Shown: positions 2,698 through 35,853 of the stretch, piece after piece
How the letters are laid out: every line of letters begins with the position of its first letter
Position numbering within the stretch: position 1 is the stretch's first letter
NCBI GenBank assembly: GCA_015523605.1
Contig: WAKC01000043.1
Coordinates: forward strand, 111,339-167,135
Reading direction: 5' to 3'
DNA: 55,797 nt
Origin: Candidatus Geothermarchaeota archaeon
GTDB taxonomy: Archaea > Thermoproteota > Nitrososphaeria > Geothermarchaeales > JDFR-13
Made by a program: the position numbers and the translations under genes
Notes under the pieces: model-generated
Told to the model about the DNA's origin: nothing
Database searches by the model: none
Seen by the model: only the letters and a program-made list of their open reading frames with translations

Positions 2698-2732
2698 AGT
2701 TATATATCGTTTTTCATAATAAAAATTACATG
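2698..2732 (+). promoter_or_regulatory. TATA promoter giving a probably leaderless subtilase message
   Basis: The AT box GTTATATATC is centred near 2704, 26 bp before the ATG at 2730. Archaeal transcription starts about 25-27 bp after the TATA centre, so the first transcribed base should be at or next to the start codon. No ribosome-binding motif lies in between, which agrees with a leaderless message. This is inference from spacing. Confidence 0.55.
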
Positions 2733-5700: not shown

Positions 5701-7052
5701 CAACATTCACTCTAACCTTCGAATACTGGAAGAGAGAGCCACATCCATGGATTACACCCTCTTCACCGGTTCTGAATGTAGGCGCAAATAGTTTCGCCAC
5801 GGTACTTCTAGATATAACGGTCCCAGTAGATGCGGTACCAACTGTAGAGCAGGGATACATAGTTCTCAATCCTCAGACACCTGGTGCTAAGAAATTCTTG
5901 ATACCATTCTCATTCATAATATCAATGCCTGTTTCAGCCTCGGAAGGTCTAGTCAAGGAGGTTCCATTTAGACCATATAGTGAAGGATTCTATAACCCCA
6001 ATTTCATTAGGGGACTCTTCGACTTCGGTACTAGGGATGCTGGAGATCACAGACTCTGGTTCATGACCTACGAAGGAGACCCTGATGAGAGGACTTTCGG
6101 TATATATGCATATAGCGAATGGGAAAGTCCATTCACAGATATAGATATGTTCTCCATAGACGCCGGAACAATTGTCAACGATAAAAGTGAAAATACATGG
6201 ACTGGATACAATACTTTACATCAGACTAGATTGACACGTACATCTGAAATGGTAGCTGTATGGCCATGGCCAAATGCATATCTATTTGGTCCAGATACAA
6301 TATCACTCTGGTCTAGACTATATGATGGAGGCGATAATGCAGAGCGTGTCAGGAGTAGCGTGAGGTTTGCAAAGCTAAACTTTGGAAATGGCACGCAATT
6401 CGACAATACAAACTTTGATGCTAGGAAAGTACCGGGTGGCATAGTTATAAACATACCAGTCTTTATAGAGACGGGAGTAGACCTTCAAAATGTAATATTC
6501 CTAAATCCTATGGCAGACCCAGGATTAAACTTCACAGTTACACCTAATGTGACATCAGCAGCAGCATTCTCATCTGATAATAAGGTCATATTCAGAGTAT
6601 TCGTGTCTCAAAACATATTGGATATGGTACAGAACTTTGGTCAGCAAGAGTTCCAGTTCAATGTTACAGTGACAGCAGATTATCTGCCATACACAACGGT
6701 GTTCCAGTTTAAGATACTTATAAAGCCATTCCCGCTTCCACTGAAGACTATAGCATCTAATGGAGACAGTATTGTATTTCTTGATGTAGGTACGAGGACA
6801 GGTGAAGTAATAATACTTCCCTACTATGGCTATGACCCAAGCACAGGCCAATTCGGATCAACAGTGGGTCAGATGATAAAGTATCCCATGATTGTTAAGA
6901 AGGTGATGGTAACCAGTCAGTGGGCATTAGTAGAGGTGTTGATAGAGTTTAAGTATAACGATGGCACCTCAGCATGGCTGCCAGGTCAAATCTGGATCTT
7001 TAGAAACAGTGACAAAGTGTATTTAACTGGAGCATTCCAACTCCTACACTAA
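2730..7052 (+). CDS. Large secreted subtilisin-like serine protease (S8, pyrolysin-like layout)
   Basis: Extracellular endoprotease of 1440 residues, far larger than ordinary subtilisins. A Sec signal peptide with a strong hydrophobic core (about residues 5-24) ends near LGASQT. A propeptide-like region follows up to about 205. The catalytic set is complete: Asp232 (AVVDTGVD), His464 (GHGTSVASVAAG), the oxyanion Asn610 (ISAGNEGPG) and Ser703 (SGTSMAAPVVSG). The 232 residues between Asp and His contain a big insertion, as in pyrolysin and tripeptidyl peptidase II. Roughly 650 residues of beta-rich sequence follow the catalytic domain; I see no C-terminal membrane anchor. Its job is probably breakdown of external protein for food or processing of the cell surface layer. 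It is a single-gene unit with its own promoter and a T-rich stop. Confidence 0.95.
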   Translation: MLRRMVSILLILLFIGWISLPFLGASQTVYLGSDPTLFYDFELDFIKSEMMKRLSQVPYIDPALSKDDYPQEVLLLLREDADLEALAEAVINARFTPSIEDLRFSFAVLKPGAYDKLKDVEGLLLALPDVQIDFPGDIDDIGRSLDKSSIPSDLSYPELIDYLGNLKTTLQSEYREKLISTLSEVSLTGDVVTPPSEDMYYVTDLLGLNKQVNGKPLKSQYNGTGVTIAVVDTGVDFGTLGLFSWRNKVARDSMGRTASFDADNQVIAFTNILVEAYSNGTHTLINSSGSDPLLWLSILPRLYPNFFPISWIFTPVPYSALFSTTFPVDMDVTGILNPGDRAKFGLLFEFITGLNIFPVLLVDSNLDGTYDTLYVDVSSEYKRVFGYTPDWSFADEQALTETGLTVPTYDHNGDGIPDFQAGTLAWGIDVFCAVPSTSGEQCSILEPIDDEGEYAVFVYDWQGHGTSVASVAAGVNDFVGNYYPEILFGTLQPYGSGIAPNASIMGIPIFSLVDIFEAWFWAAGFDLIPGTEGFYPVPGFGWVYGIWQYTGNHKADIISNSWGFIGWEHASQGWFIYGPFIITLFADAISLPSYLDPSYPGTLLVISAGNEGPGAGTTGPPGYSGLAITVAASTSLPWLPSLGWGGGYNDTIVFFSSRGPNVMGYPVPELSAPGAFGFAPTAIWNVLLTGGDGAFLDIFSGTSMAAPVVSGSAAVVIQAYRDILGVTPTPDEVKRLLLMSAKDMGLPPNVQGVGRVDVYNAIQYLMSGVAPGNGVDVYSPLTSGNYMMREFVPFLFNWFLSSLTGNNIFDDPSLLPFSAPQVWKEYPVYGWFEQGMVINGYPALDFNNPLSTAVSYNVEVVRDVMVHSEITTGVISSVQGPWSTSRTFTLTHTPWPGDYDFLRIQLTMDWQNVFDPNLDGFDDVNLYLYAFDWVDTNSNGFPEGGELSWLAFSPLTGTTQEVLLPKSMLDNLNGQLLIVVREVYNVYGLNPTFTLTFEYWKREPHPWITPSSPVLNVGANSFATVLLDITVPVDAVPTVEQGYIVLNPQTPGAKKFLIPFSFIISMPVSASEGLVKEVPFRPYSEGFYNPNFIRGLFDFGTRDAGDHRLWFMTYEGDPDERTFGIYAYSEWESPFTDIDMFSIDAGTIVNDKSENTWTGYNTLHQTRLTRTSEMVAVWPWPNAYLFGPDTISLWSRLYDGGDNAERVRSSVRFAKLNFGNGTQFDNTNFDARKVPGGIVINIPVFIETGVDLQNVIFLNPMADPGLNFTVTPNVTSAAAFSSDNKVIFRVFVSQNILDMVQNFGQQEFQFNVTVTADYLPYTTVFQFKILIKPFPLPLKTIASNGDSIVFLDVGTRTGEVIILPYYGYDPSTGQFGSTVGQMIKYPMIVKKVMVTSQWALVEVLIEFKYNDGTSAWLPGQIWIFRNSDKVYLTGAFQLLH

Positions 7053-7081: not shown

Positions 7082-7156
7082 CTATAGGTTGAAAATCTAT
7101 ATACATCTCTATATCATCCTCATTTAACAAAACAATTCTATATATAGGTGTTCCCT

Positions 7157-8638
7157 ATGGCGACATATAAGGAGGTTCTCCCAAACTATGGAAAGCTTGA
7201 CATATACATTAACGGAAAGTTTATAAGCTCTGAAACCCATGAATACTTAAAAGTCTTTAACCCGGCTAAAGATGAAGTCATTGCACAGGTTCCTAACACT
7301 TTGAAGGAGGAGGTGGATGAGGCTGTAGAATCGGCTTATGAAGCCTATCTAAAGTGGAGGGAAACCCCCATACCCACTAGGGTACAGTATCTTTTTAGAA
7401 TTAAAGATGTTTTGGAGAGACATAAAGATGAGATTGCACGTATAATCGTCCAAAATCATGGTAAGATATATGACGAGGCTTTAGGGGAGGTGCGAAGAGC
7501 TATTGAAAATGTGGAGACGGCGATTGGAGTAGCATACCTACTTCAGAAGGGTGAATATCTGGAGAATGTAGCTGGAGGTATTGATGAGTATCTGGTAAGG
7601 GAACCATTAGGTGTTGCAGCGATAATATCTCCATTCAACTTTCCGGTGATGGTCCCATTCTGGTTTATACCTTATGCATTAGCGGTAGGTGACACGGTTG
7701 TCGTTAAACCGAGTGAGATCACTCCTGTGCCATTCCACTGGGTCATGAAGTTGCTTCACGAGGAGGCCAGGCTTCCACCAGGACTTATTAATGTGGTTTA
7801 CGGCTTGGGAAATGTTGGTGAAGCTTTGATAAGCCATAAAAAAGTTTTTGGAGTGGCCTTCGTAGGTTCAACGAGGGTGGCAAGAATCATATATAAGAGG
7901 GTTGGAGAGCTTGGTAAGAAGGCGCTTCTACAGGCCGGAGCCAAGAACTTCGCTGTCGTCATGCCAGACGCTAAGATGGATAGGACTGTGACCAATCTAA
8001 TATCTAGTTTCTTCGGTAATACAGGTCAGAGATGTCTAGCAAATAGTGTCTTAGTGCCTGTAGGAGAGGCGTATGACAAGGTAGTTCCAAAGTTTATAGA
8101 GCTTGCTAAACAGTTGAAACTTGGCTATGGATTGGATGAGGATGTGGATATGGGTCCTATGGTTACAAGGAAATCTTTGGAGAGAGTCCACTACTATATT
8201 GAGAAGGGTTTGGAGGAGGGGGCTAAGCTGAGTCTCGACGGTAGAAATGTTAAGGTAGAGAAGTATCCAAACGGCTATTTCATAGGCCCCACAGTATTTG
8301 AAGATGTTACTCCTGAGATGACGATAGCTAGGGAAGAGATCTTTGGTCCTGTAGCATCTGTTATAAAGGCTTCTACGCTGGACGAGGTAATTGATATGGT
8401 TAACAAGAGTGAATATGGCAATGCCACAAGCATATTTACATCAAGTGGCGAGGTAGCTAGGAAGTACAGAAGAAGTGTGAATGTGGGTAACGTAGGTATT
8501 AACATAGGTATTGCCGCTCCAATGGCGTTCTTCCCATTTGGTGGAAGAAAGGAGTCATTCTTCGGCATCGTCCATGGACAAGTCGATAGTCTAGACTTCT
8601 TCACGGATAAGAAAATAGTTATAGAGCGTTGGTGGTAA
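7157..8638 (+). CDS. mmsA: Methylmalonate-semialdehyde dehydrogenase-like aldehyde dehydrogenase
   Basis: NAD-dependent aldehyde dehydrogenase, cytoplasmic, 493 residues. The catalytic Cys293 sits in FFGNTGQRCLAN. Where ordinary aldehyde dehydrogenases carry the general-base Glu (ELGGK), this protein has QAGAKNFAVVMPDA; the Asn in GAKN is the mark of CoA-acylating methylmalonate-semialdehyde dehydrogenases, which turn malonate or methylmalonate semialdehyde into acetyl- or propionyl-CoA. The cofactor-binding blocks SPFNFPVMVPFW, KPSEITPVP and FVGSTRVAR are intact. I choose ATG 7157 over the in-frame GTG at 7148 because AGGTG at 7146-7150 is well spaced for it. The stop overlaps the start of the next small gene (TAATG), so the two are co-translated. 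The acyl substrate is inferred. Confidence 0.87.
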   Translation: MATYKEVLPNYGKLDIYINGKFISSETHEYLKVFNPAKDEVIAQVPNTLKEEVDEAVESAYEAYLKWRETPIPTRVQYLFRIKDVLERHKDEIARIIVQNHGKIYDEALGEVRRAIENVETAIGVAYLLQKGEYLENVAGGIDEYLVREPLGVAAIISPFNFPVMVPFWFIPYALAVGDTVVVKPSEITPVPFHWVMKLLHEEARLPPGLINVVYGLGNVGEALISHKKVFGVAFVGSTRVARIIYKRVGELGKKALLQAGAKNFAVVMPDAKMDRTVTNLISSFFGNTGQRCLANSVLVPVGEAYDKVVPKFIELAKQLKLGYGLDEDVDMGPMVTRKSLERVHYYIEKGLEEGAKLSLDGRNVKVEKYPNGYFIGPTVFEDVTPEMTIAREEIFGPVASVIKASTLDEVIDMVNKSEYGNATSIFTSSGEVARKYRRSVNVGNVGINIGIAAPMAFFPFGGRKESFFGIVHGQVDSLDFFTDKKIVIERWW

Positions 8639-8970
8639 TGAAGAAGTATACACTATCCAAACTTATAAACTCACTTATCATGTTTGAAGAGGCCCTCTCA
8701 AAATATCTAGACGAGAAGGGATATGCTGATATGGCTAGAGACTCTAGGCGGCGTCTAGACGCTCTAAGAGATTCCTCCAACCTCATAGTTGTGGAGATGA
8801 CATTAGAACCAATCTATACAGTTGATATATCAGAAGTGTTAAACCTAATTCGTAATATTAATGATAGGAACAGAATCGAGGAGATGGTTAGAAACATGTA
8901 TATGGAAATATCTAAAGCTTTGGAGAATGTATCTCTTGAGTATGCTGAGTTAATGAAATCCCTCTTCTAA
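8638..8970 (+). CDS. Small helical protein, unknown function
   Basis: A 110-residue, charged, fully helical protein not recognised as any named family. The start ATG overlaps the dehydrogenase stop (TAATG) with GGTGG just upstream, so it is translationally coupled to the mmsA-like gene. The helices around MFEEALSKYLDEKGY and MYMEISKALENVSLEYAELM recall a ferritin-like bundle, but the metal-binding His residues are absent, so this is only a loose likeness. No cysteine, signal peptide or membrane segment is present. Its tight coupling suggests it assists the dehydrogenase or the same pathway. It converges on the radical SAM gene with a 3-bp gap. Confidence 0.6.
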   Translation: MKKYTLSKLINSLIMFEEALSKYLDEKGYADMARDSRRRLDALRDSSNLIVVEMTLEPIYTVDISEVLNLIRNINDRNRIEEMVRNMYMEISKALENVSLEYAELMKSLF

Positions 8971-8973
8971 ACT

Positions 8974-9933
8974 TTATAATAGCTTCCGAGCCAATGTATT
9001 AGACATCACATATTCTCTATCAAGCCATGTAACTATCTCGACATCACCAAGCTTTATAAGGTCGTGGAGCGTCTCCTCGGGATTTAGATTGAATAGTTTA
9101 AAGTATTTATAGGCATCCTCCTTTGTCATAGGATACAATGTAGAGATGTAAATAAACTCCTCAATTGGGTCGTCCATCTTCTTGTTTACATACGATTCAG
9201 GTATATAATCGACTATCTCTACCCTATTCGGCATAAATTTGGTTAAACGTGTATAAATATAGGTTAATTTTTCAGTCTTTGGGGGTCTTGCACCACCACG
9301 ATTGGGATAATAAGGAGTGTTTATAAATACTTTATTAGGATTGATAGCCTTTACAGCACTAATCATATCATTTAAATCCTCGATATGATCGTTATAACCC
9401 TCGACGAGCATTATATCGAGATATAACTTCCCTCTATATTCCCTTCTAAACCTAGTTAGGTGATAATATACTTCAGTAGGATCGACTCTAATACTCGGTT
9501 TATTTAAATCGTCAATTACATCCTTCCTTAATGTGTCAAATTTTATCATTACAATGTCAAACTGTTTCAGTAGGTTGAATATATGGTTATTAGACAATGT
9601 AGATCCGTTTGTATATAGGGCCACTGGAATACCATAAGACTTTAGATATTTAAGGATTGTTGGTAGCTCAGGGTCTAAAGTGGGTTCACCTATGGGGGAT
9701 ATGAGTAGGGCCTTTATGCTTCTCAAGCCATACTTCCTAATGTATTCCTCAATTTGCTTCTCGAAACGGGTTAGCCTGTCTAGGTAGGAGGGACAACTAT
9801 CCTTGAATATCCTGCCAAGATAACAATATTTACACATGAAGTTACAGGTAGTATATTCATAGTTATTGATTAAATATACTTTTTTTAGCCTAGGCTCTAA
9901 TATGGGCCCACCGATAAACCGATTCAATATCAT
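8974..9933 (-). CDS. Radical SAM protein with C-terminal winged-helix-like region
   Basis: Iron-sulfur enzyme that cleaves S-adenosylmethionine to start radical chemistry. The [4Fe-4S] ligands are Cys30, Cys34 and Cys37 in TTCNFMCKYCYLG. The SAM-binding GEPTLDPEL block and barrel strands (ALYTNGSTL, FDIVMIKFDT) follow, with a FINTPYYPNRGG strand late in the barrel. The last 75 residues look like a small helical/winged-helix domain (MTKEDAYKYFKLFNLNPEETLHDLIKLGDVEIV). The layout is that of the COG0731-type radical SAM group, close to wyosine-base enzymes, but the reaction cannot be assigned. It is transcribed alone from an AT-rich 89-bp upstream gap. Confidence 0.85.
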   Translation of the reverse strand: MILNRFIGGPILEPRLKKVYLINNYEYTTCNFMCKYCYLGRIFKDSCPSYLDRLTRFEKQIEEYIRKYGLRSIKALLISPIGEPTLDPELPTILKYLKSYGIPVALYTNGSTLSNNHIFNLLKQFDIVMIKFDTLRKDVIDDLNKPSIRVDPTEVYYHLTRFRREYRGKLYLDIMLVEGYNDHIEDLNDMISAVKAINPNKVFINTPYYPNRGGARPPKTEKLTYIYTRLTKFMPNRVEIVDYIPESYVNKKMDDPIEEFIYISTLYPMTKEDAYKYFKLFNLNPEETLHDLIKLGDVEIVTWLDREYVMSNTLARKLL

Positions 9934-25434: not shown

Positions 25435-26031
25435 TTAGCCTACGACCTTTAGAGCATCCTGATATACCATGAAGGTATGTCCATATCCACATACAATGTA
25501 ACAGATAAAGTCGTAGGTACCTGGTTTATCAGCCACGAATGTTACTGCCTGCTGCTCAATAGCCTCCTTATTCTCAATCTGGAAGAACTCCTGAAGAGAT
25601 TTTGCTTTACCAGAGAAGTTCTTATAGTTTGTACTCATGAATATCTTGAAAGCAGTTACCTGTAGGCCGTGGTCTACCTGTCCGGTAGCGATTGCCTCTT
25701 CAATTTTAGCCCTTAATTCCTCACCGGAGAGTCCTCCAACACCCTCCCTTATAGCTTTTTCCTCAAGTTTATTATGGAACTCGTCTGCGAAAGACCTAGC
25801 ATTGAAGAAGTATATCTTTACCTTATCTCCCTTATTTACAACAATCTGATCTATTGGATTATAGTTCTCATCGTATAAGGCGAATCCCCAGTGATAAGCT
25901 ACTACAATAAAGACTTTCGCCTCTTCTTGTGGTGCTGTCCCTATCATTCCTGGGAATAGGAATGCCGCTACTATACCTATCACTACTATCACTGCTACGA
26001 TGGGTATTACCAGTTTGGTGTTGACTGCCAT
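25435..26031 (-). CDS. Membrane-anchored CuA cupredoxin (cytochrome oxidase subunit II-like)
   Basis: A 198-residue protein with one N-terminal membrane helix (residues 6-28) and an outside cupredoxin domain. The dinuclear CuA ligand set is complete: His121, Cys177, Cys181, His185 and Met188 (CYIVCGYGHTFM, spacing C-x3-C-x3-H-x2-M). AYHWGFALYDENYN and IVVNKGDKVKIYFFN match the start of oxidase subunit II, and FVADKPGTYDFIC matches the CuA strand of NosZ itself. A charged helical insertion of about 40 residues (80-118) precedes His121. No oxidase subunit I is nearby; the gene is divergent from nosZ across 228 bp, so it most likely feeds electrons to NosZ. The usual Glu between the two Cys is Ile here. 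AGGTGAT lies 5 bp before the ATG. Confidence 0.85.
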   Translation of the reverse strand: MAVNTKLVIPIVAVIVVIGIVAAFLFPGMIGTAPQEEAKVFIVVAYHWGFALYDENYNPIDQIVVNKGDKVKIYFFNARSFADEFHNKLEEKAIREGVGGLSGEELRAKIEEAIATGQVDHGLQVTAFKIFMSTNYKNFSGKAKSLQEFFQIENKEAIEQQAVTFVADKPGTYDFICYIVCGYGHTFMVYQDALKVVG

Positions 26032-26194
26032 GAGTTATCACCTTATATTTTTTAAACAATTCCCTTCTATAATATAACCAGCCATATATATTTAATATTT
26101 ACTTCCTGAGAGGTATAACACTATTATAAACAACTATATTTTTTAAACTAACGATTGACATTATATAATTCTGTATAAATTTAGGTATCCCTAA

Positions 26195-26226
26195 CGAATG
26201 AGGGTATTTAATTATTCCCTCATTCG
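26195..26226. promoter_or_regulatory. Perfect inverted repeat in the nosZ promoter/leader
   Basis: CGAATGAGGG at 26195-26204 and CCCTCATTCG at 26217-26226 are exact reverse complements, separated by 12 AT-only bases (TATTTAATTATT). The arm centres are 22 bp apart, two helical turns, as expected for a dimeric repressor or activator. The spacer itself can act as a TATA box: its centre is about 50 bp before the nosZ ATG, giving a start near 26235 ahead of the ribosome site at 26246-26252. If transcription instead starts at an upstream box (26160-26168), the repeat would be a 10-bp hairpin in the leader. Either way a regulatory role is likely. Confidence 0.65.
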
Positions 26227-26259
26227 AGAATATTGATTATTGACAGAGGTGAATTTCAG

Positions 26260-28326
26260 ATGGCGAAGAGGAATGGCAGACGTGGAAGGAAGGGCGTATC
26301 AAGGAGAGAGTTCCTATCACTAGCAGGCGGACTAGCAGTAGGTGCGGCAGTAGGGTATACAGCGTTCAAGCTAACCACTCCAACACCAGAGGCAGCTATA
26401 CCATATCAGGACATCATTGAGAAGAGGGGTTTGACACCAGATGATGTGGAGGGTGCGTTAAAAACATATCTCCCAGGAGGGGTATATGACGAGTTCATCC
26501 TATTCGCAAGTGGTGGACATTCAGGTCAGGTTCTTGTATTTGGAGTACCATCTATGAAGCTATATAGGGTAATTGGTGTCTTTACTCCCGAGCCTTGGCA
26601 GGGATATGGATATGGTGTTAAGGAGACGATGGAGGTCCTGAAGAACGGTAGTAATGGAATTAGATATTTGACATGGGGTGATGTTCACCATCCAGAAATT
26701 AGCAGGACAAATGGTGAGTTTGACGGTGAGTGGCTATTCGTCAATGACAAGGCAAATGGTAGAGTAGCTGTAGTTAGCCTCAAGGACTTCGAGACTAAAC
26801 AGATTGTTAAAATACCAAATACACAGAGTCAGCACGGCGGTGCCTTCTGTACACCTAACACTGAATATGTGGTTGTAGGTTCTCAGTATCCAACTCCATG
26901 GGATCCAGATAAGGGTTATGTACCTGGCGAGACATATGTAGAGCTTGATCCAAATGATCCCGATACTTTGAAGGACAACTTTAGAGGAACTGTTACATTC
27001 TTGAAGTTCGATAGGAATAAGGGTAGGTTTATTTTGGAGGAGAGCTTCCAGATTGAGCTTCCACCATACTCACAAGATCTGGTGTGTGTTGGATGGGGTC
27101 CATCAGATGGTATGTGTTTCATAAACACTTTCAACACTGAAATGGCTATTGGAGGTGTTCTAGAAGGTAAGCCACCTGTTGAGGTGGGTTCAGCAGAATA
27201 CGACTTTGATTATCTACATGTAATTCTATGGAAGAAAGCCGAGCAATTAGTTAAACAGGGCAAATATAAGGAGATGAACGGTATAAAGGTTATTACCCTC
27301 GATACAGCTATTAAGGAGGGAATCTTGTTCCACGCACCTGAACCTAAGAGTCCACACGGAGCTGATATAGCCCCAAGAGGAGATTATATAGTCGTAGCTG
27401 GTAAGCTTGAGCCAGTTGCAACTGTATATGGAGCTGATAACATTAAGAAGGCTATTGAGAATAAGGACTTTGAGGGTAAGGACGTATATGGAGTGCCAAT
27501 TCTAAGGTTTGATGCGGTTAAGGTTGCACAGGTAGAGTTAGGTCTAGGTCCACTCCATACTGAATTTGATGACAAGGGATATGCTTACACTAGTCTCTTC
27601 ATAGATAATAAGATAGCTAAGTGGACATTAGGTCCTCCTTACTTCGAGGGTGACGAGGCTTGGAAGGTTGTTGACAAGGTTGACATACACTACAACATAG
27701 GTCACCTAGCCGCTCCAGAGAGTAACTCACCATCACCAAAGGGTAAGTATGTAGTTGCCCTCAACAAGTGGTCTATAGATAGATTCCCCAACCTAGGTCC
27801 ACTAAAGCCACAGAACTTCCAGGTAATAGACATTACTGGGGAGAAGATGAAGGTATTACTTGACTATCCAATAGGAATAGGAGAGCCGCACTACGCCAAG
27901 ATAATTGATATTAACAAGATCAAGGCATTAGAGGTATATCCAATGGGTGTAAATCCAATAACCTTTGAGAAGCATCCATATGCCATCCAGAAGGGTGAAG
28001 AGAGGATTGAGAGGACCACCATCGATGGTAGACCAGCAACTGTTGTATATGCTACAGTTATAAGGAGTACATTCACACCAGACATCATCAGAGTAAAACA
28101 GGGAGACTTAGTCAGGATACATGTAACCAATGTCGAGACTACACCTGACGCTACACATGGATTCGCAATCTGTGAATTGAACATTAACGCTAGTATTGAG
28201 CCTGGTGAGACTGCTACAATTGAATTCGAGGCTGACAAGCCAGGTGTCTATGCCTTCTACTGTTCAGAATTCTGTTCACCACTACACCTCGAGATGGCTG
28301 GATGGCTAATAATTGAGCCGGCCTAG
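26260..28326 (+). CDS. nosZ: Nitrous oxide reductase, Tat-exported
   Basis: Multicopper enzyme that reduces N2O to N2, the last step of denitrification, outside the cytoplasmic membrane. A twin-arginine signal (SRREFLSLAGG, Arg15-Arg16) is at the N-terminus. The seven CuZ histidines are all present: His143/His144 (DVHHP), His192 (QHGG), His366 (PHGAD), His433 (PLHTE), His482 (GHLA) and His544 (EPHYA). The CuA domain has His633, Cys668, Cys672, His676 and Met679 (CSEFCSPLHLEM). So both copper centres are intact in 688 residues. ATG 26260 is chosen over the upstream TTG at 26233 because GAGGTGA at 26246-26252 is ideally spaced. It heads an operon with nosL, a membrane protein, nosD, nosF and nosY. 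Confidence 0.97.
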   Translation: MAKRNGRRGRKGVSRREFLSLAGGLAVGAAVGYTAFKLTTPTPEAAIPYQDIIEKRGLTPDDVEGALKTYLPGGVYDEFILFASGGHSGQVLVFGVPSMKLYRVIGVFTPEPWQGYGYGVKETMEVLKNGSNGIRYLTWGDVHHPEISRTNGEFDGEWLFVNDKANGRVAVVSLKDFETKQIVKIPNTQSQHGGAFCTPNTEYVVVGSQYPTPWDPDKGYVPGETYVELDPNDPDTLKDNFRGTVTFLKFDRNKGRFILEESFQIELPPYSQDLVCVGWGPSDGMCFINTFNTEMAIGGVLEGKPPVEVGSAEYDFDYLHVILWKKAEQLVKQGKYKEMNGIKVITLDTAIKEGILFHAPEPKSPHGADIAPRGDYIVVAGKLEPVATVYGADNIKKAIENKDFEGKDVYGVPILRFDAVKVAQVELGLGPLHTEFDDKGYAYTSLFIDNKIAKWTLGPPYFEGDEAWKVVDKVDIHYNIGHLAAPESNSPSPKGKYVVALNKWSIDRFPNLGPLKPQNFQVIDITGEKMKVLLDYPIGIGEPHYAKIIDINKIKALEVYPMGVNPITFEKHPYAIQKGEERIERTTIDGRPATVVYATVIRSTFTPDIIRVKQGDLVRIHVTNVETTPDATHGFAICELNINASIEPGETATIEFEADKPGVYAFYCSEFCSPLHLEMAGWLIIEPA

Positions 28327-28340
28327 GTAGGTGAATAGTA

Positions 28341-28859
28341 TTGAATCTCAAACTTATTATCCCCCTTATTTTTATTATTTTGGGTGTAGGTTACCTAGCA
28401 TATGTAATATACTCCTCCTCCCAATATGCCCCTGAAATTATATATGGACAAGAGAGATGTGACAATTGTGGGATGATTATAAGTGAGAAAAAATTCTCTG
28501 CAATTGCATATGCTATTAACGAAGGTAGATGGGTAAAGTTCGATGATATAGGTGGGCTATTTATATATATGGTTAAGAATGGAGGTAGGGAGGCTTTTAA
28601 AGACATCTATGTCTTTGACTTTATATCTGGAGAGCAGATAAAAGCTACTGAAGCTTATTTTGTAAGAGGTGATTCGGAAAAGATTTGGACTCCAATGTCT
28701 AGCGGTATAATAGCATTTAAATCTTTAGATGATGCACGTAAATATGCTGAACAGTTTGATGCAGAGGTCTTTACTTTTGATGAGCTATATACCATGGTAT
28801 ATAATAGACCAGATATGGTATTTCAGAATATGGTCATGTATATAGGGGTTATAGGGTGA
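28341..28859 (+). CDS. nosL: NosL-like copper-binding accessory protein
   Basis: Membrane-anchored NosL homologue of 172 residues, thought to deliver Cu(I) to apo-NosZ. A single N-terminal hydrophobic helix (residues 4-26) replaces the lipoprotein signal of bacterial NosL. The hallmark CDNCGMIISEKKFSA is present, and WVKFDDIGGLFIYM matches the family FDDIGC region. PMSSGIIAFKSLDDARKYAEQF near the end matches the conserved NosL C-terminal block. The start is TTG at 28341 with GGTGA at 28330-28334, 14 bp after the nosZ stop. Copper binding through the CxxCGM motif follows from the family. Confidence 0.92.
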   Translation: MNLKLIIPLIFIILGVGYLAYVIYSSSQYAPEIIYGQERCDNCGMIISEKKFSAIAYAINEGRWVKFDDIGGLFIYMVKNGGREAFKDIYVFDFISGEQIKATEAYFVRGDSEKIWTPMSSGIIAFKSLDDARKYAEQFDAEVFTFDELYTMVYNRPDMVFQNMVMYIGVIG

Positions 28860-28864
28860 TATAA

Positions 28865-29416
28865 ATGGTTGATAAGGTAAAGATATTTAAACTCGTTTTA
28901 GTTGTTATTCCATTGATCAGCATTGCCTTTCCATTGTGGACTTTAAATGTGAACCCTGCATTTATGGGGAGGAAGTGGTTTGCAATTGATATCTATGGAT
29001 ATGGGAAGGTAGATGGACCTATAGAGAGTTTGAATATTGCTAATCACTATGTAGGGTTGAAGGAGATTATACCTGATCAGATGCTTGAACTAAAAGTTTT
29101 ACCTCTTCTATATCCATTAATGTCGATTCTAATGTATATATTCTTGTTTGGAGATCCAGACAAATCTAAATTAGCGAAGTATCTTATTATAGGGGTCTTC
29201 ATAAGCATAGTTCTCTACTTCCAATTTTGGCTATATAGGTATGGTCATGATATTGATCCTCAGCTGGCTAGGATTGAGATTGACCCGTTCACACCATACG
29301 TTGTGGGATACTATGAAATTGCAAACTTCAAAATTCTAGCATACTTTAACGTTGGATTCTTCATGATGCTTTTTGCGTTTATCGCAGGATGGATATTGAG
29401 GCGGAAATATGGTTAG
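28865..29416 (+). CDS. Four-helix membrane protein of the nos operon
   Basis: An integral membrane protein of 183 residues with hydrophobic segments at about 8-27, 80-98, 103-124 and 155-178. An external loop after the first helix carries IESLNIANHYVGLKEI, and the loop before the last helix carries DPFTPYVVGYYEIANFKILAY. As far as I recall, LNHYIGM- and PPxIG-NF-like motifs recur in multi-pass proteins of bacterial clade II nos clusters, so this is probably a conserved but uncharacterised nos component; it is not clearly NosB, NosG or NosH. No Cys pair or heme motif is seen, so it is not itself a redox carrier by sequence. Start ATG 28865 has GGGTGA just upstream, inside the end of nosL. Confidence 0.75.
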   Translation: MVDKVKIFKLVLVVIPLISIAFPLWTLNVNPAFMGRKWFAIDIYGYGKVDGPIESLNIANHYVGLKEIIPDQMLELKVLPLLYPLMSILMYIFLFGDPDKSKLAKYLIIGVFISIVLYFQFWLYRYGHDIDPQLARIEIDPFTPYVVGYYEIANFKILAYFNVGFFMMLFAFIAGWILRRKYG

Positions 29417-29424
29417 CCAGAGAG

Positions 29425-30840
29425 ATGAGGTTAAAAATTTATTTTCTAATAACAATTCTGGTATTATCAACTCTCATAGGAATAGTAAATGTTAATGGCT
29501 CATCCAACGTGGTAAGAGACGAATTTGGGAATATATATAACAGTATAGGGGAGGCAATTGAATCGGTTCCACCCGGTTCAGAGATAGTCGTAGAGGGAGG
29601 CGTATACAAAGAACGTCTAATCATAAATAAATCTATTAAGCTAATTGGCGTTGACTATCCCACGATTGATGCAGATTTATTCGGAACCAACATTATGATA
29701 CAAAACGTAGAGAATGTCTATATAGAGGGTTTTAAGATAATCAATTCTGGTCGTGCATATTCGACTGAGGATGCTGGGATAAGGATAGATAACGCTAAAA
29801 ATGTAGCCATCATAAATAATGTGTTTGACAACATCTTCTTTGGAATTCTTATCAAGGAATCTTATAATGTCACGATAGAGAATAACTCGTTCACAGGAAT
29901 AGAAGAATATTATATTTCAGATAGGCAACATGGTATCTATACATGGTATTCCAGAAAAGTATTTGTGAGAAATAATGTATTCACCTCTGTAAAAGATGGT
30001 ATCTATAACGACCACAACTACGACTCAGTAATTGAAAACAATCTATTCATGGGTGGGAGATACGGTATCCATCTAATGTATAGCGCCAACTATACGATAA
30101 GGAATAATACGATAACTCAATTTATAGCTGGTATGGCGTTAATGTATAGTCAAAACATCACAGTAAGGTATAACAAGATAATCTTTAATAGGGTAGGAGG
30201 TATTGGTGAAGGTATTTTCATGCCTGAGTGTGATGATATATTTGTTGAATATAACTGGATTGTGGGGAATGTATTCGGCCTAAATATTAGGTATCTCCCA
30301 TACACTCCCGGTGAGTTAGCTGTTATTAGGTACAATGTTATTGCCTTTAACTATATAGGGATATCATTCGATCCAGATTCATCAGCCTATATATATGGTA
30401 ACGACTTTATCGAGAATATCCAGAATGTTAGATACATCGGCTTCAAACCTAGTAGGACAAAATGGTATAATGAGTCTATGAAGCTCGGAAATTATTGGTC
30501 TGATATAAGTACCTATGATGTAGATGAGGATGGGACTGTAGACCTGCCATATACGGGCTCGGATCCCCTATATAAATACTTTACAACACACAGGGAACTT
30601 AGTATCTTCTACTATAGCCCGTCATACTATATCTTAAGTATACTCTTTAAATATGCCTTCACCACTAGGTTTGAAGGTGTAGTATTAGATTTATACCCAT
30701 CTAAGAAACCGATTAATGTGGATGATTTAGGACTTATTTTATATACCGAAAATATTGTTTATCCAATTATATACACGATTTTACCAATTGGGATATACTA
30801 TTATGGTGTTAAACATGTTAGAGGTAAGAAACGTAGATAA
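29425..30840 (+). CDS. nosD: NosD-like periplasmic beta-helix protein
   Basis: Exported accessory protein needed, in bacteria, for copper-sulfur cluster (CuZ) assembly of NosZ together with the NosFY transporter. A Sec signal peptide (residues 1-25, MRLKIYFLITILVLSTLIG) starts at ATG 29425; the frame extends back to 29389 but that would overlap the previous gene and hide the signal. The body is a right-handed parallel beta-helix of CASH/NosD repeats with recurrent I-x-NN units (NVAIINNVFDN, NVTIENNSF, NYTIRNNTI, NITVRYNKI). GNYWSDISTYDVDEDGTVDLPY is the standard NosD C-terminal block. A final hydrophobic segment (VYPIIYTILPIGIYYY) with a basic tail may anchor it in the membrane. Confidence 0.93.
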   Translation: MRLKIYFLITILVLSTLIGIVNVNGSSNVVRDEFGNIYNSIGEAIESVPPGSEIVVEGGVYKERLIINKSIKLIGVDYPTIDADLFGTNIMIQNVENVYIEGFKIINSGRAYSTEDAGIRIDNAKNVAIINNVFDNIFFGILIKESYNVTIENNSFTGIEEYYISDRQHGIYTWYSRKVFVRNNVFTSVKDGIYNDHNYDSVIENNLFMGGRYGIHLMYSANYTIRNNTITQFIAGMALMYSQNITVRYNKIIFNRVGGIGEGIFMPECDDIFVEYNWIVGNVFGLNIRYLPYTPGELAVIRYNVIAFNYIGISFDPDSSAYIYGNDFIENIQNVRYIGFKPSRTKWYNESMKLGNYWSDISTYDVDEDGTVDLPYTGSDPLYKYFTTHRELSIFYYSPSYYILSILFKYAFTTRFEGVVLDLYPSKKPINVDDLGLILYTENIVYPIIYTILPIGIYYYGVKHVRGKKRR

Positions 30841-31681
30841 ATATTTTGACGATTTCCAGGTATTGGAGGATGTAACTTTTGATATCGGTAGAGGTGTTGC
30901 TGCAGTTCTAATAGGTAAGAATGGAGCTGGAAAATCTACGTTAATCCGGTGTATAGCAGGCCTACTTAGATATGAAGGGTCTATAAAGGTAGAGGGTAAA
31001 GAAGTACGTGAAGAATCGATAGAGGTGAAAAAGGTTATAGGTTATCTTCCCCAAACCGCTCCTGTAAGAGGTGATCTCACGGGTTATCAGATATTCAATT
31101 TATATCTCGATCTTTACGATATTGACTTAGATATTGAGGAGTGGTTTGAGAGATTTGAGTTGTTAGATGCTATTGATGTTCCAATTGATGAATATAGTGG
31201 AGGAATGAGGCAAAGACTCTTCCTGGCTATGGCGATCGCACACGATCCAAGTCTCATTTTAATGGATGAGCCAATGAATAATCTAGATAGTATTGGTAAG
31301 TCTCTATTAGTTGATATTATTCATGAGTATAAAAGGAAGGGGAAGACTTTTGTGATTAGTGGACATAGACTATCTGACTTCATTACATATGCAGATGAGA
31401 TAATCCTGATTGATGACGGCCGCCTGCTTTATAAAGGTAGTATAGAGGAGTTGTTCAAGATATTGGGTATTGCAAAGGTTTACATCTATTCTTCTGACGG
31501 TAGAATTAAAGACGCTATTGATAGTCTAAATATAAGATATTTAGATGAGAATCGGGCTGTCATCGAGTCTGACGATGCATACTATGCTATTAAGAAGCTG
31601 GTTGAGAATAATATAACGAATTTCTTCATCGAAGAGCCTTCAATCGATACTATTATTAAGAGGTTGGGAGGAAATGAATAA
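30815..31681 (+). CDS. nosF: NosF-like ABC transporter ATPase
   Basis: Cytoplasmic ATPase of the NosDFY maturation system, thought to power export of a sulfur species for CuZ. Walker A is LIGKNGAGKSTLIRC, the Q-loop follows as GYLPQTAPV, the signature is YSGGMRQRLFLAMA, Walker B is LILMDEPMNNLD, and the switch His is in ISGHRLSD. I choose ATG 30815 (MLEVRNVDKYF) with GGTG at 30805-30808; the frame is open upstream only because it crosses nosD. It overlaps nosD by 26 bp and nosY by 8 bp, so the three are translated together. About 85 residues after the ATPase domain form a small alpha/beta tail. Confidence 0.94.
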   Translation: MLEVRNVDKYFDDFQVLEDVTFDIGRGVAAVLIGKNGAGKSTLIRCIAGLLRYEGSIKVEGKEVREESIEVKKVIGYLPQTAPVRGDLTGYQIFNLYLDLYDIDLDIEEWFERFELLDAIDVPIDEYSGGMRQRLFLAMAIAHDPSLILMDEPMNNLDSIGKSLLVDIIHEYKRKGKTFVISGHRLSDFITYADEIILIDDGRLLYKGSIEELFKILGIAKVYIYSSDGRIKDAIDSLNIRYLDENRAVIESDDAYYAIKKLVENNITNFFIEEPSIDTIIKRLGGNE

Positions 31682-32498
31682 CGTATATCTACTCGCGAGA
31701 GAAGAGTTCTTGGGTAGTTTAAGAAGTAGATGGCTAATTATATACTCGTTATCATATCTTCTCTTGGCTATTTCGATCTCACCGTTCTCACTAGCTGGCT
31801 TAAATATTTTGGGTATGAAGGCTGTTGGGAAGGTTCTCTCCTCACTAATCAACCTTTCATTATACCTCATTCCCTTGATATCTCTGTCCATGTCTGCAAT
31901 CTCCATTGTAGGAGATAGAGAGACCAATTTTATGGAGTGGATTTTTTCAAAACCAATCAATGAATTACACTATATATTGGGTAAATTCTTGGGACTTTCT
32001 GCCGCACTTACTGTAGCTACGCTACTTGGCTTTGGTCTTGCAAGCTGGTTTGTAATTCTCTTCCTACCGCCAGAAGATGTTACCAAATATTTCCAGTTAG
32101 TTCTAATGGCCATATCACTCGCACTCGTGTTTATACCTCTTGGGCTATATATATCCGATTCCTCCAGGACACGGTATCAGGCTCTTGGAGCCGCTTTCTT
32201 CCTATGGTTCTTCATGGTCTTCGTCTTCGACCTATTCGTTATGGGGTTTATAGAAGCGAATATTAAAGATCCGTTGGTGGCATCATTATTAGGGTTGACA
32301 AATCCGGTAGAAGCGATTAGGATTTTGATGGTTAAATCGATTGACCCCGATCTAACTTTCTTAGGATTCACAGGTGTATTAGTTCTTAGAGAAAACTTAG
32401 ATTTGATACTTACATATTCGATAGCGATCTTAATAACCTATGCTATAGCATTCATATCTTTGACTTACCTGAATCTTAGAAGGAAGGATCTGATATAG
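31674..32498 (+). CDS. nosY: NosY-like ABC transporter permease
   Basis: Membrane subunit of the NosFY transporter, 274 residues with six hydrophobic segments. The N-terminus (YLLAREEFLGSLRSRWLIIYSLSYLLLA) and the loop VGDRETNFMEWIFSKPINELHYILGKFLG are typical of ABC-2-type NosY proteins that dock on NosF. NPVEAIRILMVKSIDPDLTFLG near the last helices also fits the family. The start lies inside the end of nosF (8-bp overlap, with GGGAGGA before the ATG). It ends the operon; a convergent gene follows after 46 bp. Confidence 0.93.
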   Translation: MNNVYLLAREEFLGSLRSRWLIIYSLSYLLLAISISPFSLAGLNILGMKAVGKVLSSLINLSLYLIPLISLSMSAISIVGDRETNFMEWIFSKPINELHYILGKFLGLSAALTVATLLGFGLASWFVILFLPPEDVTKYFQLVLMAISLALVFIPLGLYISDSSRTRYQALGAAFFLWFFMVFVFDLFVMGFIEANIKDPLVASLLGLTNPVEAIRILMVKSIDPDLTFLGFTGVLVLRENLDLILTYSIAILITYAIAFISLTYLNLRRKDLI

Positions 32499-32544: not shown

Positions 32545-32994
32545 TTATTCAATTACAAAGTATTCTATGTCTGTTATAGTTCCGCGGCGTTCTTCCTCAG
32601 GCTTAAATATAGGGTTCACTCGGACTCCTAGAACCATTTTAGATGGGTCATCCACCTTTAGTCTATGTATTAGCCCTCCCTCTACAGGTTCTTCATCAAC
32701 CTCGAATCTTATGAATCCATATATTATTGGTTCTTCGAGGTCCTTCCCTTCAAAGTCTTTCCATAGGATTGTATAGAGGTCTAGATATGCGTTGGTCACC
32801 TTCTCATATTTCTTTATTTCTGAGAAGCATCTTGGGCAATATGCTGATGGGGGCATCATGTAGTTATCGCAGATCTCACAATAGGCTGCATATAGCTCTC
32901 CTTTTTTAAGTCCCTCAGCGAACTTCTCTCCTCCTCTTCCAATGGGATATATATACTTTGGAACGTCGATCTTGAACCTAAACTCCTTCTTCAT
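32545..32994 (-). CDS. DUF35 zinc-ribbon/OB-fold protein (second copy)
   Basis: DUF35 partner protein of thiolase-superfamily enzymes, 149 residues. The rubredoxin-like zinc ribbon is YCEICDNYMMPPSAYCPRC (two C-x2-C knuckles) at about residues 40-58, followed by an OB-fold with IYGFIRFEVDEEPVEGGLIHRL and MVLGVRVNPIFKPEEERRGTITDIEYF. DUF35 proteins bridge or complete acyl-CoA enzymes and help channel CoA intermediates. It is the last gene of a four-gene unit (two thiolase-like, two DUF35), 3 bp after its sister, which it resembles throughout. Confidence 0.9.
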   Translation of the reverse strand: MKKEFRFKIDVPKYIYPIGRGGEKFAEGLKKGELYAAYCEICDNYMMPPSAYCPRCFSEIKKYEKVTNAYLDLYTILWKDFEGKDLEEPIIYGFIRFEVDEEPVEGGLIHRLKVDDPSKMVLGVRVNPIFKPEEERRGTITDIEYFVIE

Positions 32995-32997
32995 AGG

Positions 32998-33519
32998 CTA
33001 CACCTCCTCAACAGGTTTGAAATATAATATGTCATTTACAGATCCCGTCCTCTCTTCTGGAGGCTTCCATACTGCCTTCACCTTCTTACCGAATATTTTT
33101 CTGTTGATTACGTCTTCTGGGTCTACTTCTCCTAGTCTATGTAGAATTCCCATTCCTTTGGAGGCTCCTTCAAGCTCTATCACGGCTATTATAAGGGGTT
33201 TATCCATTCTACTCCTATCTGCTTGTATATAGCTTACGACTGCTGTGTTAACTCTTCCAGTATCTCCAACCTCCACCCATTCATCGGTCTCTCTAAAGCA
33301 GTATTGGCATACCTCTCTTGGTGGGACATATATCCTTCCACATGCTTTACAATATCTCCCCAATATCCTCCCTTCTTTAAGTCCTTCTAAATATTTGCTT
33401 AGGTATTTCCCGAGGCTCCATCTATACCAAAGTTCGAGAGAATCCTCTGTATATAATACCCTTCCCTCCTCAAGGTCATTTCTTTTATATGGGGTTCCAG
33501 GTGGATTTTCAGGCTTCAT
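32998..33519 (-). CDS. DUF35 zinc-ribbon/OB-fold protein (first copy)
   Basis: Sister of the preceding-coordinate DUF35 gene, 173 residues with about 30 extra residues at the N-terminus. The zinc ribbon is YCKACGRIYVPPREVCQYC, with an amphipathic helix before it (WRWSLGKYLSKYLEGLKEG) that in known complexes docks on the thiolase partner. The OB-fold has VVSYIQADRSRMDKPLIIAVIELEGASKGMGILHRL. Having one DUF35 for each of the two thiolase-like proteins suggests a hetero-oligomer of all four products. It lies 6 bp after the second thiolase-like gene. Confidence 0.9.
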   Translation of the reverse strand: MKPENPPGTPYKRNDLEEGRVLYTEDSLELWYRWSLGKYLSKYLEGLKEGRILGRYCKACGRIYVPPREVCQYCFRETDEWVEVGDTGRVNTAVVSYIQADRSRMDKPLIIAVIELEGASKGMGILHRLGEVDPEDVINRKIFGKKVKAVWKPPEERTGSVNDILYFKPVEEV

Positions 33520-33525
33520 AACTTC

Positions 33526-34704
33526 TCACCTCCTCATTATAATCACGGTCCCAACCTGCATAAGATCGCCCCATGCCTGTGCCAGTCCTGTGACAACATC
33601 CTTCTTAACCTGTCTCTTGCCTGCTTGACCCTTTAACTGCCAATACACCTCGGCTACCTTCATTAAGCCTGCTGCAGCTATTGGATTCCCAACCCCTAAT
33701 AATCCACCGCTTGGGTTAATAGGTAGGTCTCCATCCCTCTCCGTAACTCCCTCCCTAGTCAATATAGGTGCTTCACCCTTCCTAGCTAACTGGAGGCCTT
33801 CCATGTGATGGAGCTCCTTATAGTCGAATGGATCATAAACCTCGGCAAAATCTATCTCCTTCCTTGGATTATGTATGCCAGCCATTTTATATGCCATCTT
33901 CCCAGCATAGTAGAGATATGTCGGGAATGCTAAATCCCTATTTGTCCAGTACATCGTATCTAGGTTCCATCCCACACCTTCAATCCATATAGGTTCATCC
34001 GTGAGCTGCTTAGCATTCTCCTCATCTGTAAATACAAGTGCCACTGCACCGTCTGAGATGGGGGATATATCCAGTCTCTGGACAGGCCATACTAAAACCT
34101 CACTATTCAATACGTCTTCCACCGTTATCTTCATACCCAGCTGTGCAGCGGGATGATCTAAAGCATTCCTCTTATTCTTGACAGACACAAGGGCGATATC
34201 CTCCTTCTTAATATTGTATTTATACATGTATCTATGCATCTCCAATGCAAATATCCAGATCAAATTAACTCCAAGTGGTTTCTCGGTGACTGGGTCGAAT
34301 ATATGATGGAATACATACTGTGGATGTGGCTGTACATGGCTCATCTTCTCCTCAGCTATGACTAGGACTCTTCTACAGAGTCCAGATGCTACATGCCACC
34401 ATCCAGCTATAGCGGAGAATACTCCAGTTCCTCCTCCGACATATACCCTGGTATATGGCTTGTTAAGAGCTCCTCCTCCATCTGCTAAGGCCTCACTCTG
34501 CATGTGTATTCCGTCGAAGTTGTCGGGGGCGGTTCCATATACTACACAATCTATGTCCTTGATTGTGAGGCCTGCATCCTCTAAAGCCTGTTTAGCAGCT
34601 AGCCACATCAATTCATCTGATGTTTCATATAACCTCCTCCTAAAGAGTGTCATACCAGCCCCTACACATGCAACTCTATTTTTTAGATGTATGTTCATCC
34701 TCAT
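33526..34704 (-). CDS. Thiolase-superfamily protein without canonical catalytic residues (A)
   Basis: SCP-x/archaeal acetyl-CoA acetyltransferase-like fold, 392 residues. The first half has ACVGAGMTLFRRR-type start and KQALEDAGLTIKDIDCVVYGTA; the usual nucleophile motif (C-A-S-G) reads GGGTG (Gly90-Gly94), so the Cys is missing. The usual GHPxGATG motif reads GNPIAAAG, with Asn340 replacing the His, and the second Cys near the C-terminus is also absent. It therefore cannot do ordinary thiolase chemistry. Overall fold motifs (NPSGGLLGVGNP, EKMSH) are kept. It is probably a structural or CoA-binding partner of the adjacent sister, or an aldolase-type enzyme like the Ltp2/DUF35 system. Confidence 0.85.
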   Translation of the reverse strand: MRMNIHLKNRVACVGAGMTLFRRRLYETSDELMWLAAKQALEDAGLTIKDIDCVVYGTAPDNFDGIHMQSEALADGGGALNKPYTRVYVGGGTGVFSAIAGWWHVASGLCRRVLVIAEEKMSHVQPHPQYVFHHIFDPVTEKPLGVNLIWIFALEMHRYMYKYNIKKEDIALVSVKNKRNALDHPAAQLGMKITVEDVLNSEVLVWPVQRLDISPISDGAVALVFTDEENAKQLTDEPIWIEGVGWNLDTMYWTNRDLAFPTYLYYAGKMAYKMAGIHNPRKEIDFAEVYDPFDYKELHHMEGLQLARKGEAPILTREGVTERDGDLPINPSGGLLGVGNPIAAAGLMKVAEVYWQLKGQAGKRQVKKDVVTGLAQAWGDLMQVGTVIIMRR

Positions 34705-34710
34705 GATTCT

Positions 34711-35853
34711 TCACCTCCCGAGAACCAATACTGCATAGGAGTTTGATGGAACCTCCCTCCTTATAGCTACCAAAGCCTTCTCAGGATCGTCTAACTGGTT
34801 GAAGCCGGCCTCGCCCCTCAATTGTTTCACTGCATGTAGGAGCTTCATCATACCTCCAGCCTCTAAAGGATATCCATTACCTAGGAATCCTCCTCCAGTA
34901 TTTACTGGAAAGTCTCCATCCAATGTATATACCCCGTTAACAACCATCTCCATTAAATCTCCACCGTCCAATCTGAGCATTGCTAGGGATACCAATTCTC
35001 TAAAGCTGAATCTGTCATCTACCTCTGCAAAGTCTAATTCGGCCATCGGATTCTCTATTCCAGCCATCACGTAGGCCATATTCCCAGCTGTATTCAGGGC
35101 CGTCGGAAGGTTATGTAGGGTCCTCTCTACCCGTCCACCTTGTGTAGCCCAGCCTACCCCCTCTATCCATATAGGGTCGTCTGTCAATTCCTTAGCCTTT
35201 TCTTCAGAGGCTAGTACCGCTACGGTTGCACCGTCGACATGGGGTGCTATGTCAACTTCTCTAAGCGGCTGTGCAACATACTCGCTACTTTCAAGATTAT
35301 CGTAGTCATATATCCTTGCGTATGGAGACCCCCATTCAACAGCGTTTAGGTGGTTCTTCATTATAGTCATATCTAACATGTCGAATGTAATGTCTAGGAG
35401 ACGCATCATATTCATCATCTCCAATGCAGCTAATACGTATGGATTGTCAACCACGGGCCTGACATACCATGGGTCCATAGCGAAGTGATATATCTTTTGC
35501 AACGTCTCTATCTCGCTAACCTTACTATGTGCTTCTACAGCGACAAGGTCAAAATAACCGGTCTTTATCAACATATAAGCATGGATAATACCATGTAGAC
35601 CATCGCCACCCACTGTAAATACTGATTTTAAGACTCCCCCTAGCTGATCTGGGACATATTCATCGAATATAGCTACACCCTCCCAGAGATCTTCAGATGC
35701 TGTTATAATACAGTCGAGTTCCTTCCTAGGATCTATCCCGGCATCGATATATGCTCTAGAGGCTGCTTCATACATAAGTTCTTTAAAGTTCTTCTGGGGT
35801 GTCTCAGGGCGGAACTGTGTCGAGCCTATACCTACAAGAGCTACTCTCGTCAC
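34711..35853 (-). CDS. Thiolase-superfamily protein without canonical catalytic residues (B)
   Basis: First gene of the thiolase/DUF35 unit, 380 residues. The thiolase fold is clear (RVALVGIGSTQFRPETPQ, AASRAYIDAGIDPRKELDCII, NTGGGFLGNGYPLEAGGMMKLLHAVKQLRG). The nucleophile loop reads VGGDGLHG (Gly82-Asp84), without Cys, and the GHP histidine is a tyrosine (Tyr328 in GYP). Steroid side-chain aldolase Ltp2, a thiolase-fold enzyme that works with a DUF35 partner, also relies on tyrosines, so a retro-aldol or lyase reaction on an acyl-CoA is a reasonable idea. No pathway genes beside it fix the substrate. GAGGTGATAAT precedes the start; the 73-bp gap to the HAD gene holds its promoter. Confidence 0.85.
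   Translation of the reverse strand: MTRVALVGIGSTQFRPETPQKNFKELMYEAASRAYIDAGIDPRKELDCIITASEDLWEGVAIFDEYVPDQLGGVLKSVFTVGGDGLHGIIHAYMLIKTGYFDLVAVEAHSKVSEIETLQKIYHFAMDPWYVRPVVDNPYVLAALEMMNMMRLLDITFDMLDMTIMKNHLNAVEWGSPYARIYDYDNLESSEYVAQPLREVDIAPHVDGATVAVLASEEKAKELTDDPIWIEGVGWATQGGRVERTLHNLPTALNTAGNMAYVMAGIENPMAELDFAEVDDRFSFRELVSLAMLRLDGGDLMEMVVNGVYTLDGDFPVNTGGGFLGNGYPLEAGGMMKLLHAVKQLRGEAGFNQLDDPEKALVAIRREVPSNSYAVLVLGR

Follow-up and report, generated by a model that had tools for sequence, protein, structure and literature searches.

A clade II-type nitrous oxide reduction operon in a Geothermarchaeota archaeon and a membrane-anchored CuA protein as candidate electron donor to NosZ

NosZ removes the greenhouse gas N2O by converting it to nitrogen. 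In Bacillus azotoformans, the cytochrome c gene nosC lies beside nosZ, and an open reading frame (ORF) with four transmembrane helices has been described after nosZ both there and in Wolinella (PMC3475470). NosB was needed for N2O respiration in a Wolinella nosB deletion experiment, according to the part of PMC11102522 that cites this work. For archaea, the donor of electrons to NosZ is stated to be unknown even in a haloarchaeal model organism (PMC7754194). Here we analyzed a stretch of 55,797 nucleotides (the window; contig C43, positions 111339-167135) from a heat-loving archaeon with a genome of 1.35 Mb that is 89% complete (G000). On balance, we lean toward the interpretation that the window encodes a clade II-type N2O operon and, within the same denitrification regulon, an outward-facing membrane-anchored CuA carrier (cuA198) that probably donates electrons to NosZ. 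Two candidate donors to archaeal NosZ can thus be named: cuA198 itself and, in a related genus, a trio of genes (CuA, NapH-like polyferredoxin, CuA) divergent from nosZ. The named relatives are Candidatus Geothermarchaeota metagenome-assembled genomes (MAGs), one Nitrososphaeria MAG, and Candidatus Scotarchaeum otlingeri JdFR-13. G002 and G003 are sister species in the genus of the window, and G005 and G006 belong to other genera. The features on which the analysis rests are as follows.

25435..26031, minus strand: cuA198, membrane-anchored stand-alone CuA cupredoxin of 198 amino acids, with H121, C177, C181, H185, and M188 and a Y46-x-W48-G-F50 signature
26189..26204, no strand assigned: palindrome CCCTAACGAATGAGGG, candidate operator, one mismatch to CCCTAA-N4-TTAGGG
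26260..28326, plus strand: nosZ, clade II by sequence, with a Tat-like leader; the ORF runs from TTG 26233
28341..28859, plus strand: nosL, CxxCGM copper chaperone (PF05573, 47 bits)
28865..29416, plus strand: nosB-like four-helix membrane protein, recognized by position and its four helices
29389..30840, plus strand: nosD (PF05048; TIGR04247, 295 bits against a cutoff of 300)
30755..31681, plus strand: nosF, ABC ATPase
31674..32498, plus strand: nosY, ABC-2 permease

The operon nosZ-L-B-D-F-Y occupies positions 26260-32498 and is of the clade II type. A complete N2O-reduction locus had been proposed in the first-pass annotation, and this was borne out: the ORFs lie where it had placed them, and all CuZ and CuA ligands were found. 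The genes nosL, nosD, nosF, and nosY do follow nosZ, as it stated, but the overlaps between them are smaller than claimed if ATG 29425 (nosD) and ATG 30803 (nosF) are the true starts. An internal start at ATG 29425 is likely for nosD, as is one at 30803 or 30815 for nosF. For nosZ, ATG 26260, which follows GAGGTG, is the likelier start and was preferred over TTG 26233. Between nosL and nosD lies a further gene that was absent from the earlier annotation. Its product had no match in Pfam or NCBIfam, and a gene like it was present in every Thermoproteota nos operon inspected. In Haloferax, Thermomicrobium, and Tunicatimonas such a gene sits between nosZ and nosD, recognized in Thermomicrobium from its place alone. 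The four-helix protein of Bacillus azotoformans and Wolinella encoded after nosZ goes by the name NosB elsewhere. The product encoded here matches NosB by position and its four helices, a likeness of place and topology rather than of sequence compared directly with Wolinella NosB. The locus therefore holds what defines a clade II nos operon: a NosB-like four-helix gene after nosZ, NosDFY, and NosL. Of the NosR and NosX that mark a clade I operon, NosR was sought with PF12801, which had no match in the 89%-complete genome. Elsewhere in the window, two thiolase-like and two ChsH2/OB-type zinc-ribbon genes lie downstream of nosY (32545-35853), a block that is kept in relatives, and an ORF of 1,440 amino acids with a subtilase-like (mycosin-type) stretch (2730-7052) probably encodes a large secreted protease.

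NosZ scored 777.8 bits against the NCBIfam clade II model TIGR04246, for which the cutoff is 625. Numbered from ATG 26260, its CuZ histidines are H143, H144, H192, H366, H433, H482, and H544, and its CuA ligands are H633, C668, C672, H676, and M679. In line with the earlier claim that both copper sites are complete, these seven histidines and five CuA ligands showed no variation among six archaeal NosZ sequences and align with those of Pseudomonas NosZ. The leader reads SRREFLSLAGG, a twin-arginine type whose arginine pair is invariant in the same six proteins. The Sec-type leader typical of clade II (TIGR04246 is labeled Sec-dependent) is lacking from the window protein; given its Tat-like leader, we filed this NosZ as clade II-type by domain only.

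The product of cuA198 had been described as a membrane-anchored protein resembling cytochrome oxidase subunit II (COX2), with the CuA ligands His121, Cys177, Cys181, His185, and Met188. Ligand conservation and the predicted fold both agree with that description. The spacing C-x3-C-x3-H-x2-M is exactly that of COX2, and all five ligands are invariant in the six archaeal family members compared; in haloarchaeal relatives (23-27% identity) and other distant ones, variation among the five occurs at M188 only. AlphaFold confidently predicts a cupredoxin that has a single N-terminal helix (pLDDT 83); nearest to this model in the PDB are the CuA domains of COX2 and NosZ. The protein thus has the His, Cys-x3-Cys, His, and Met of a CuA cupredoxin in the broad sense, set on a predicted cupredoxin fold. 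In the family signature Y-x-W-G-F, the tryptophan (W48) falls in the alignment at the aromatic motif through which electrons enter COX2; NosZ has no such motif. Against the CoxB model TIGR02866, the score was only 31.2 bits (cutoff, 147.7), so the protein does not classify as CoxB. The literature searched held no description of the cuA198 family. Taken with the gene contexts presented below, the ligands and the predicted fold suggest that cuA198 binds copper and is redox active.

Gene neighborhoods link cuA198 to nosZ in two genera: the two genes are divergent in G000, and cuA198 closes the nos operon of G005 (L038). In G002 and G003, cuA lies ∼35 kb from nosZ. Comparison of window positions 20000-43177 with the corresponding loci L044 and L035 showed that two blocks joined here lie ∼35 kb apart and in different orientations in the two species of the same genus. 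One block comprises PGM, NTP transferase, AFOR, and nos, and the other comprises cuA with OB, thiolase, and HAD genes; the nos operon and cuA meet at the junction. Conservation of the divergent pair in relatives, a check put forward by the first-pass annotation, therefore gave a mixed result, with adjacency to nosZ kept in G005 (at the end of the nos operon) and lost in G002 and G003. A cluster without nosZ that opens with cuA198 (cuA198, CuA, NapH-like, CuA) is present in G004 and, through a second copy of the gene, also in G005. G006 has nosZ and an NO reductase, and cuA198 is absent. No cuA198 was detected in G001, which is 85% complete.

The CuA-NapH-CuA trio also occurs without cuA198, divergent from nosZ in G006. 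Trio loci are L042 (9604-12025), L043 (1510-3935), L041 (9278-11633), L039 (∼7100-9578), L037 (345-2661), and L120 (7390-9724). Neighbors include nosZ (G006), a molybdopterin oxidoreductase gene (G004), and Hdr-like genes (G565). The NapH profile matched in 13 of 398 genomes, many of the matches being weak, and the trio was present in a few other Thermoproteota. The NapH-like protein of the module in G004, G005, and G006 scored 36 bits against TIGR02163, under the cutoff of that model. No description of such a module was found in the literature searched. In G004 and G005, the module ends with a gene for a small conserved protein with paired cysteines (CFYNNCRKPA...C.C; L039, 6762-7241; L037, 1-340; L041, 11605-12111), the L039 copy of which had no match in Pfam. 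In G562, the first CuA protein and the NapH-like protein form a fusion, which adjoins a protein of 589 amino acids (L121, on G562 contig C38, 1442-3211) made up of an anchored CuA cupredoxin and a cytochrome d1 propeller (PF02239, 332 bits) with no CxxCH. Judged by these domains, the latter is a putative nitrite-reductase-like protein in which CuA replaces heme c.

A palindrome shared among denitrification genes provides a second line of evidence. Sites matching CCCTAA-N4-TTAGGG with at most one mismatch number three to five per genome. Two of the four in the 1.35-Mb genome G000 are in the nosZ/cuA intergenic region and just before the NO reductase. In G002 and G003, where the genes are unlinked, the palindrome precedes both nosZ and cuA (in G003, these are two of its four sites), and the copy at the NO reductase has two mismatches. 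It also precedes the NO reductase in G005 (at most one mismatch) and G006 (exact). Other sites precede a Bat-type HTH_10 regulator in G005, a hemerythrin gene in G006, and the CuA-NapH-CuA trio of G004; weaker sites with two mismatches were seen in the G006 nosZ/CuA intergenic region, before a G005 trio, and before the G000 aa3 oxidase. The chance of a site with at most one mismatch in a given 230-bp region is ∼0.0004 to 0.001, a figure to be read with the motif having been defined from these same promoters and with G002 and G003 being close sisters and so not independent. A reversed-pattern control in G000 gave eight sites against four for the palindrome and was thus no rarer. At up to three mismatches, the window held 27 sites against 32, no more than chance, and for this reason we relied on sites with at most one mismatch and used a few two-mismatch sites as weak support. 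The palindrome overlaps a 13-nt inverted repeat (CGAATGAGGGTAT / ATTCCCTCATTCG, 92%, 26195-26226) before nosZ. It lies 56 bp from nosZ and 158 bp from cuA and, being nearer to nosZ, may serve nosZ alone. From these positions we infer that it is an operator. Bat-type HTH_10 regulators encoded in the vicinity of nos, NO reductase, and aa3 genes were noted together with a hemerythrin gene, some of them with the palindrome (L141, 856-1485; L142, 880-1473; L083, 9694-10359; L042, 1856-3186). These proteins and the palindrome-bearing genes are a candidate regulator and regulon. The nosZ divergent region of G006 also contains a 26-bp perfect palindrome.

The nature of the genes beside nosZ in other lineages bears on the function of cuA198. 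A cytochrome c gene adjoins nosZ in Tunicatimonas, a plastocyanin-type gene in Haloferax larsenii, and a blue-copper protein gene in G444, G361, G493, and G399; in Geothermarchaeota-type genomes, the neighbor is a CuA protein or the CuA-NapH-CuA trio. The neighbor of nosZ thus tends to be a small electron carrier, with heme c, type 1 copper, or CuA according to lineage. That unrelated small carriers recur here is the strongest argument from gene position that the neighbor feeds NosZ.

Together, three observations argue for a denitrification role: the palindrome before nosZ, the NO reductase, and unlinked cuA; the small redox carriers repeatedly found beside nosZ; and the two cuA198 copies heading a CuA-NapH-CuA cluster, the trio without cuA198 being divergent from nosZ in G006. 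That cuA198 is a denitrification-linked CuA carrier is well supported. The first-pass annotation had gone further and proposed a private donor of NosZ. Membership in the nos system holds, through adjacency in G000 and G005 and the palindrome where the genes are unlinked, but the word "private" does not, given the 35-kb separation in two sister species, the second copy without nosZ, the lack of cuA198 in nosZ-bearing G006, and haloarchaeal relatives placed among copper-response genes.

The same annotation had listed cytochromes c, NosR, and ferredoxin-type NosG/H as absent, and genome-wide searches with PF13442 and PF12801 were indeed empty in the 89%-complete genome. PF13442 had no match in six family genomes, and PF12801 had none in G000 or its genus, so that no NapH/NosR-type protein hidden elsewhere in G000 was found. 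The archaeal family bearing cuA198 seems to be free of cytochrome c, and the genus of the window seems to be free of NapH/NosR as well. Quinol would then be oxidized by a complex of Rieske protein, cytochrome b, and blue-copper protein in the genus of the window, or by a NapH-type polyferredoxin flanked by CuA proteins in related genera. Copper carriers on the outer face may accept these electrons, taking the place of the cytochromes c (NosC) of bacteria. Membrane-held cuA198 would most likely receive electrons of the quinol pool indirectly and pass them most likely to NosZ; the NO reductase, with its CuA-less subunit II, may be a further recipient. The direction and partners of this flow are our reading of gene content and context. 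A CuA-to-CuA relay might feed NosZ. Such a redox relay, if real, would be unusual, and the driving force from one CuA site to its like would probably be small. More tentatively, N2O respiration in these archaea may run on a cytochrome-c-free copper supply, in which a Rieske/cytochrome b or NapH-type system oxidizes quinol and dedicated CuA proteins deliver electrons directly to the CuA of NosZ, replacing the heme and flavin routes of NosC/NosR.

A different donor is conceivable, though we consider it doubtful: NosZ might be fed by a blue-copper protein, either the one in the Rieske/cytochrome b operon or the one beside the aa3 oxidase, with cuA198 a side carrier for another partner. In G000, a single operon (L034, 6263-8692) encodes Rieske, cytochrome b, and a type 1 (blue) copper protein, and another blue-copper protein is encoded next to the CuA-containing aa3 oxidase (L083). 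Relatives of the aa3-linked protein lie directly beside nosZ in G444, G361, and G493. N2O respiration in Wolinella reportedly needs a Rieske/cytochrome bc complex, to go by the title of a 2017 study by Hein et al., which we counted on the same side. A blue-copper donor leaves unexplained, however, why cuA198 shares a palindrome with nosZ and adjoins it in two genera.

It is less probable that cuA198 serves the NO reductase by replacing a CuA lost from subunit II, with nosZ a bystander or second client. In the G000 NO-reductase-like heme-copper enzyme (L082, contig C43, 8907-11059), Tyr/Ser/Ser replace the CuA His/Cys/Cys of subunit II; in G002 and G003, cuA and the NO reductase genes lie 3.7 kb apart, and the palindrome is common to all of these genes (with two mismatches in the NO reductase copy). 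Yet the G000 NO reductase is ∼90 kb away while cuA adjoins nosZ, the G005 gene is inside the nos operon, and G006 has an NO reductase without cuA198. The L082 enzyme carries DGNVL where HPEVY is expected and, by our reading, may be gNOR-like.

It is also unlikely that cuA198 carries no electrons and instead helps load copper sites, as a chaperone or in the response to copper stress. The haloarchaeal relatives keep the CuA ligands, and their genes have SHOCT, DUF302, HMA, P-type ATPase, and plastocyanin genes as neighbors, not nos genes; homologs on haloarchaeal plasmids, considered as nos partners, were set aside for these copper-type neighborhoods. PmoD offers a precedent of a stand-alone CuA protein tied to copper-dependent growth (PMC6189053). 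Against a chaperone, NosL and NosDFY already cover this role in the operon, the G004 and G005 copies are grouped with NapH and other CuA proteins in a redox cluster, and the tryptophan of the COX2 electron-entry site is retained.

As for ancestry, the first-pass annotation had suggested that cuA198 may derive from NosZ, citing a similar CuA strand. This origin was not supported: the ADKPG strand is a general feature of CuA domains (ADKPGxY occurs in the NapH-module CuA proteins too), and in a CuA-domain tree the cuA198 family and NosZ formed separate clades (97/97 and 100/100, respectively), the former also apart from COX2, the domain being short and the deep branches without resolution. A joint NosZ-cuA198 clade was not rejected in this short domain (p-AU, 0.21), yet it had no support. 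The absence of an oxidase subunit I, also claimed, holds within the 7 kb of the locus and in the window as a whole, while two are encoded elsewhere in the genome; no family member was found in an operon with subunit I, the arrangement that had been proposed as a check. A degenerate oxidase subunit II left without function after loss of subunit I is very improbable, for despite weak similarity to CoxB (TIGR02866, 31 bits) the ligands are invariant across three genera and the haloarchaea (M188 varies in the wider family), and the family has its own clade and no operon with subunit I.

The preferred reading, a clade II-type operon with a CuA carrier that likely feeds NosZ, can be set against described systems. 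The nosC-Z-B-L-D-F-Y clusters of Bacillus azotoformans, Methylacidiphilum caldifontis IT6, and Wolinella have the same clade II NosZ, four-helix NosB, NosDFY, and NosL, and, like the window, they lack NosR/NosX and place a small redox carrier next to nosZ. In the window, this neighbor is a CuA cupredoxin instead of a cytochrome c, and the genus has no NosG/NosH. Halocyanin/plastocyanin-type donors (Haloferax larsenii; G444, G361, G493, and G399) are likewise single small copper carriers beside nosZ, but with type 1 single-copper sites and one Cys, not homologous in detail to cuA198. The Wolinella NosG-C1-C2-H quinol dehydrogenase and the module of G004, G005, and G006 both combine a NapH-family polyferredoxin with flanking redox carriers; the module, in contrast, has two or three CuA proteins in place of cytochromes c, no NosG-like gene was seen in the trio, and the module is absent from the genus of the window. 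With COX2 and the subunit II of CuA-type NO reductases, cuA198 shares the CuA ligand set and spacing, the N-terminal anchor, and the aromatic electron-entry motif, whereas it has ∼40 residues inserted ahead of the first His, lacks a subunit I in its operon, and forms a separate clade. Finally, PmoD/AmoD is, like cuA198, a CuA protein outside oxidases and NosZ that is tied to another copper enzyme; PmoD holds CuA at a homodimer interface with noncanonical ligands, whereas cuA198 carries the canonical set in one chain (PMC6189053).
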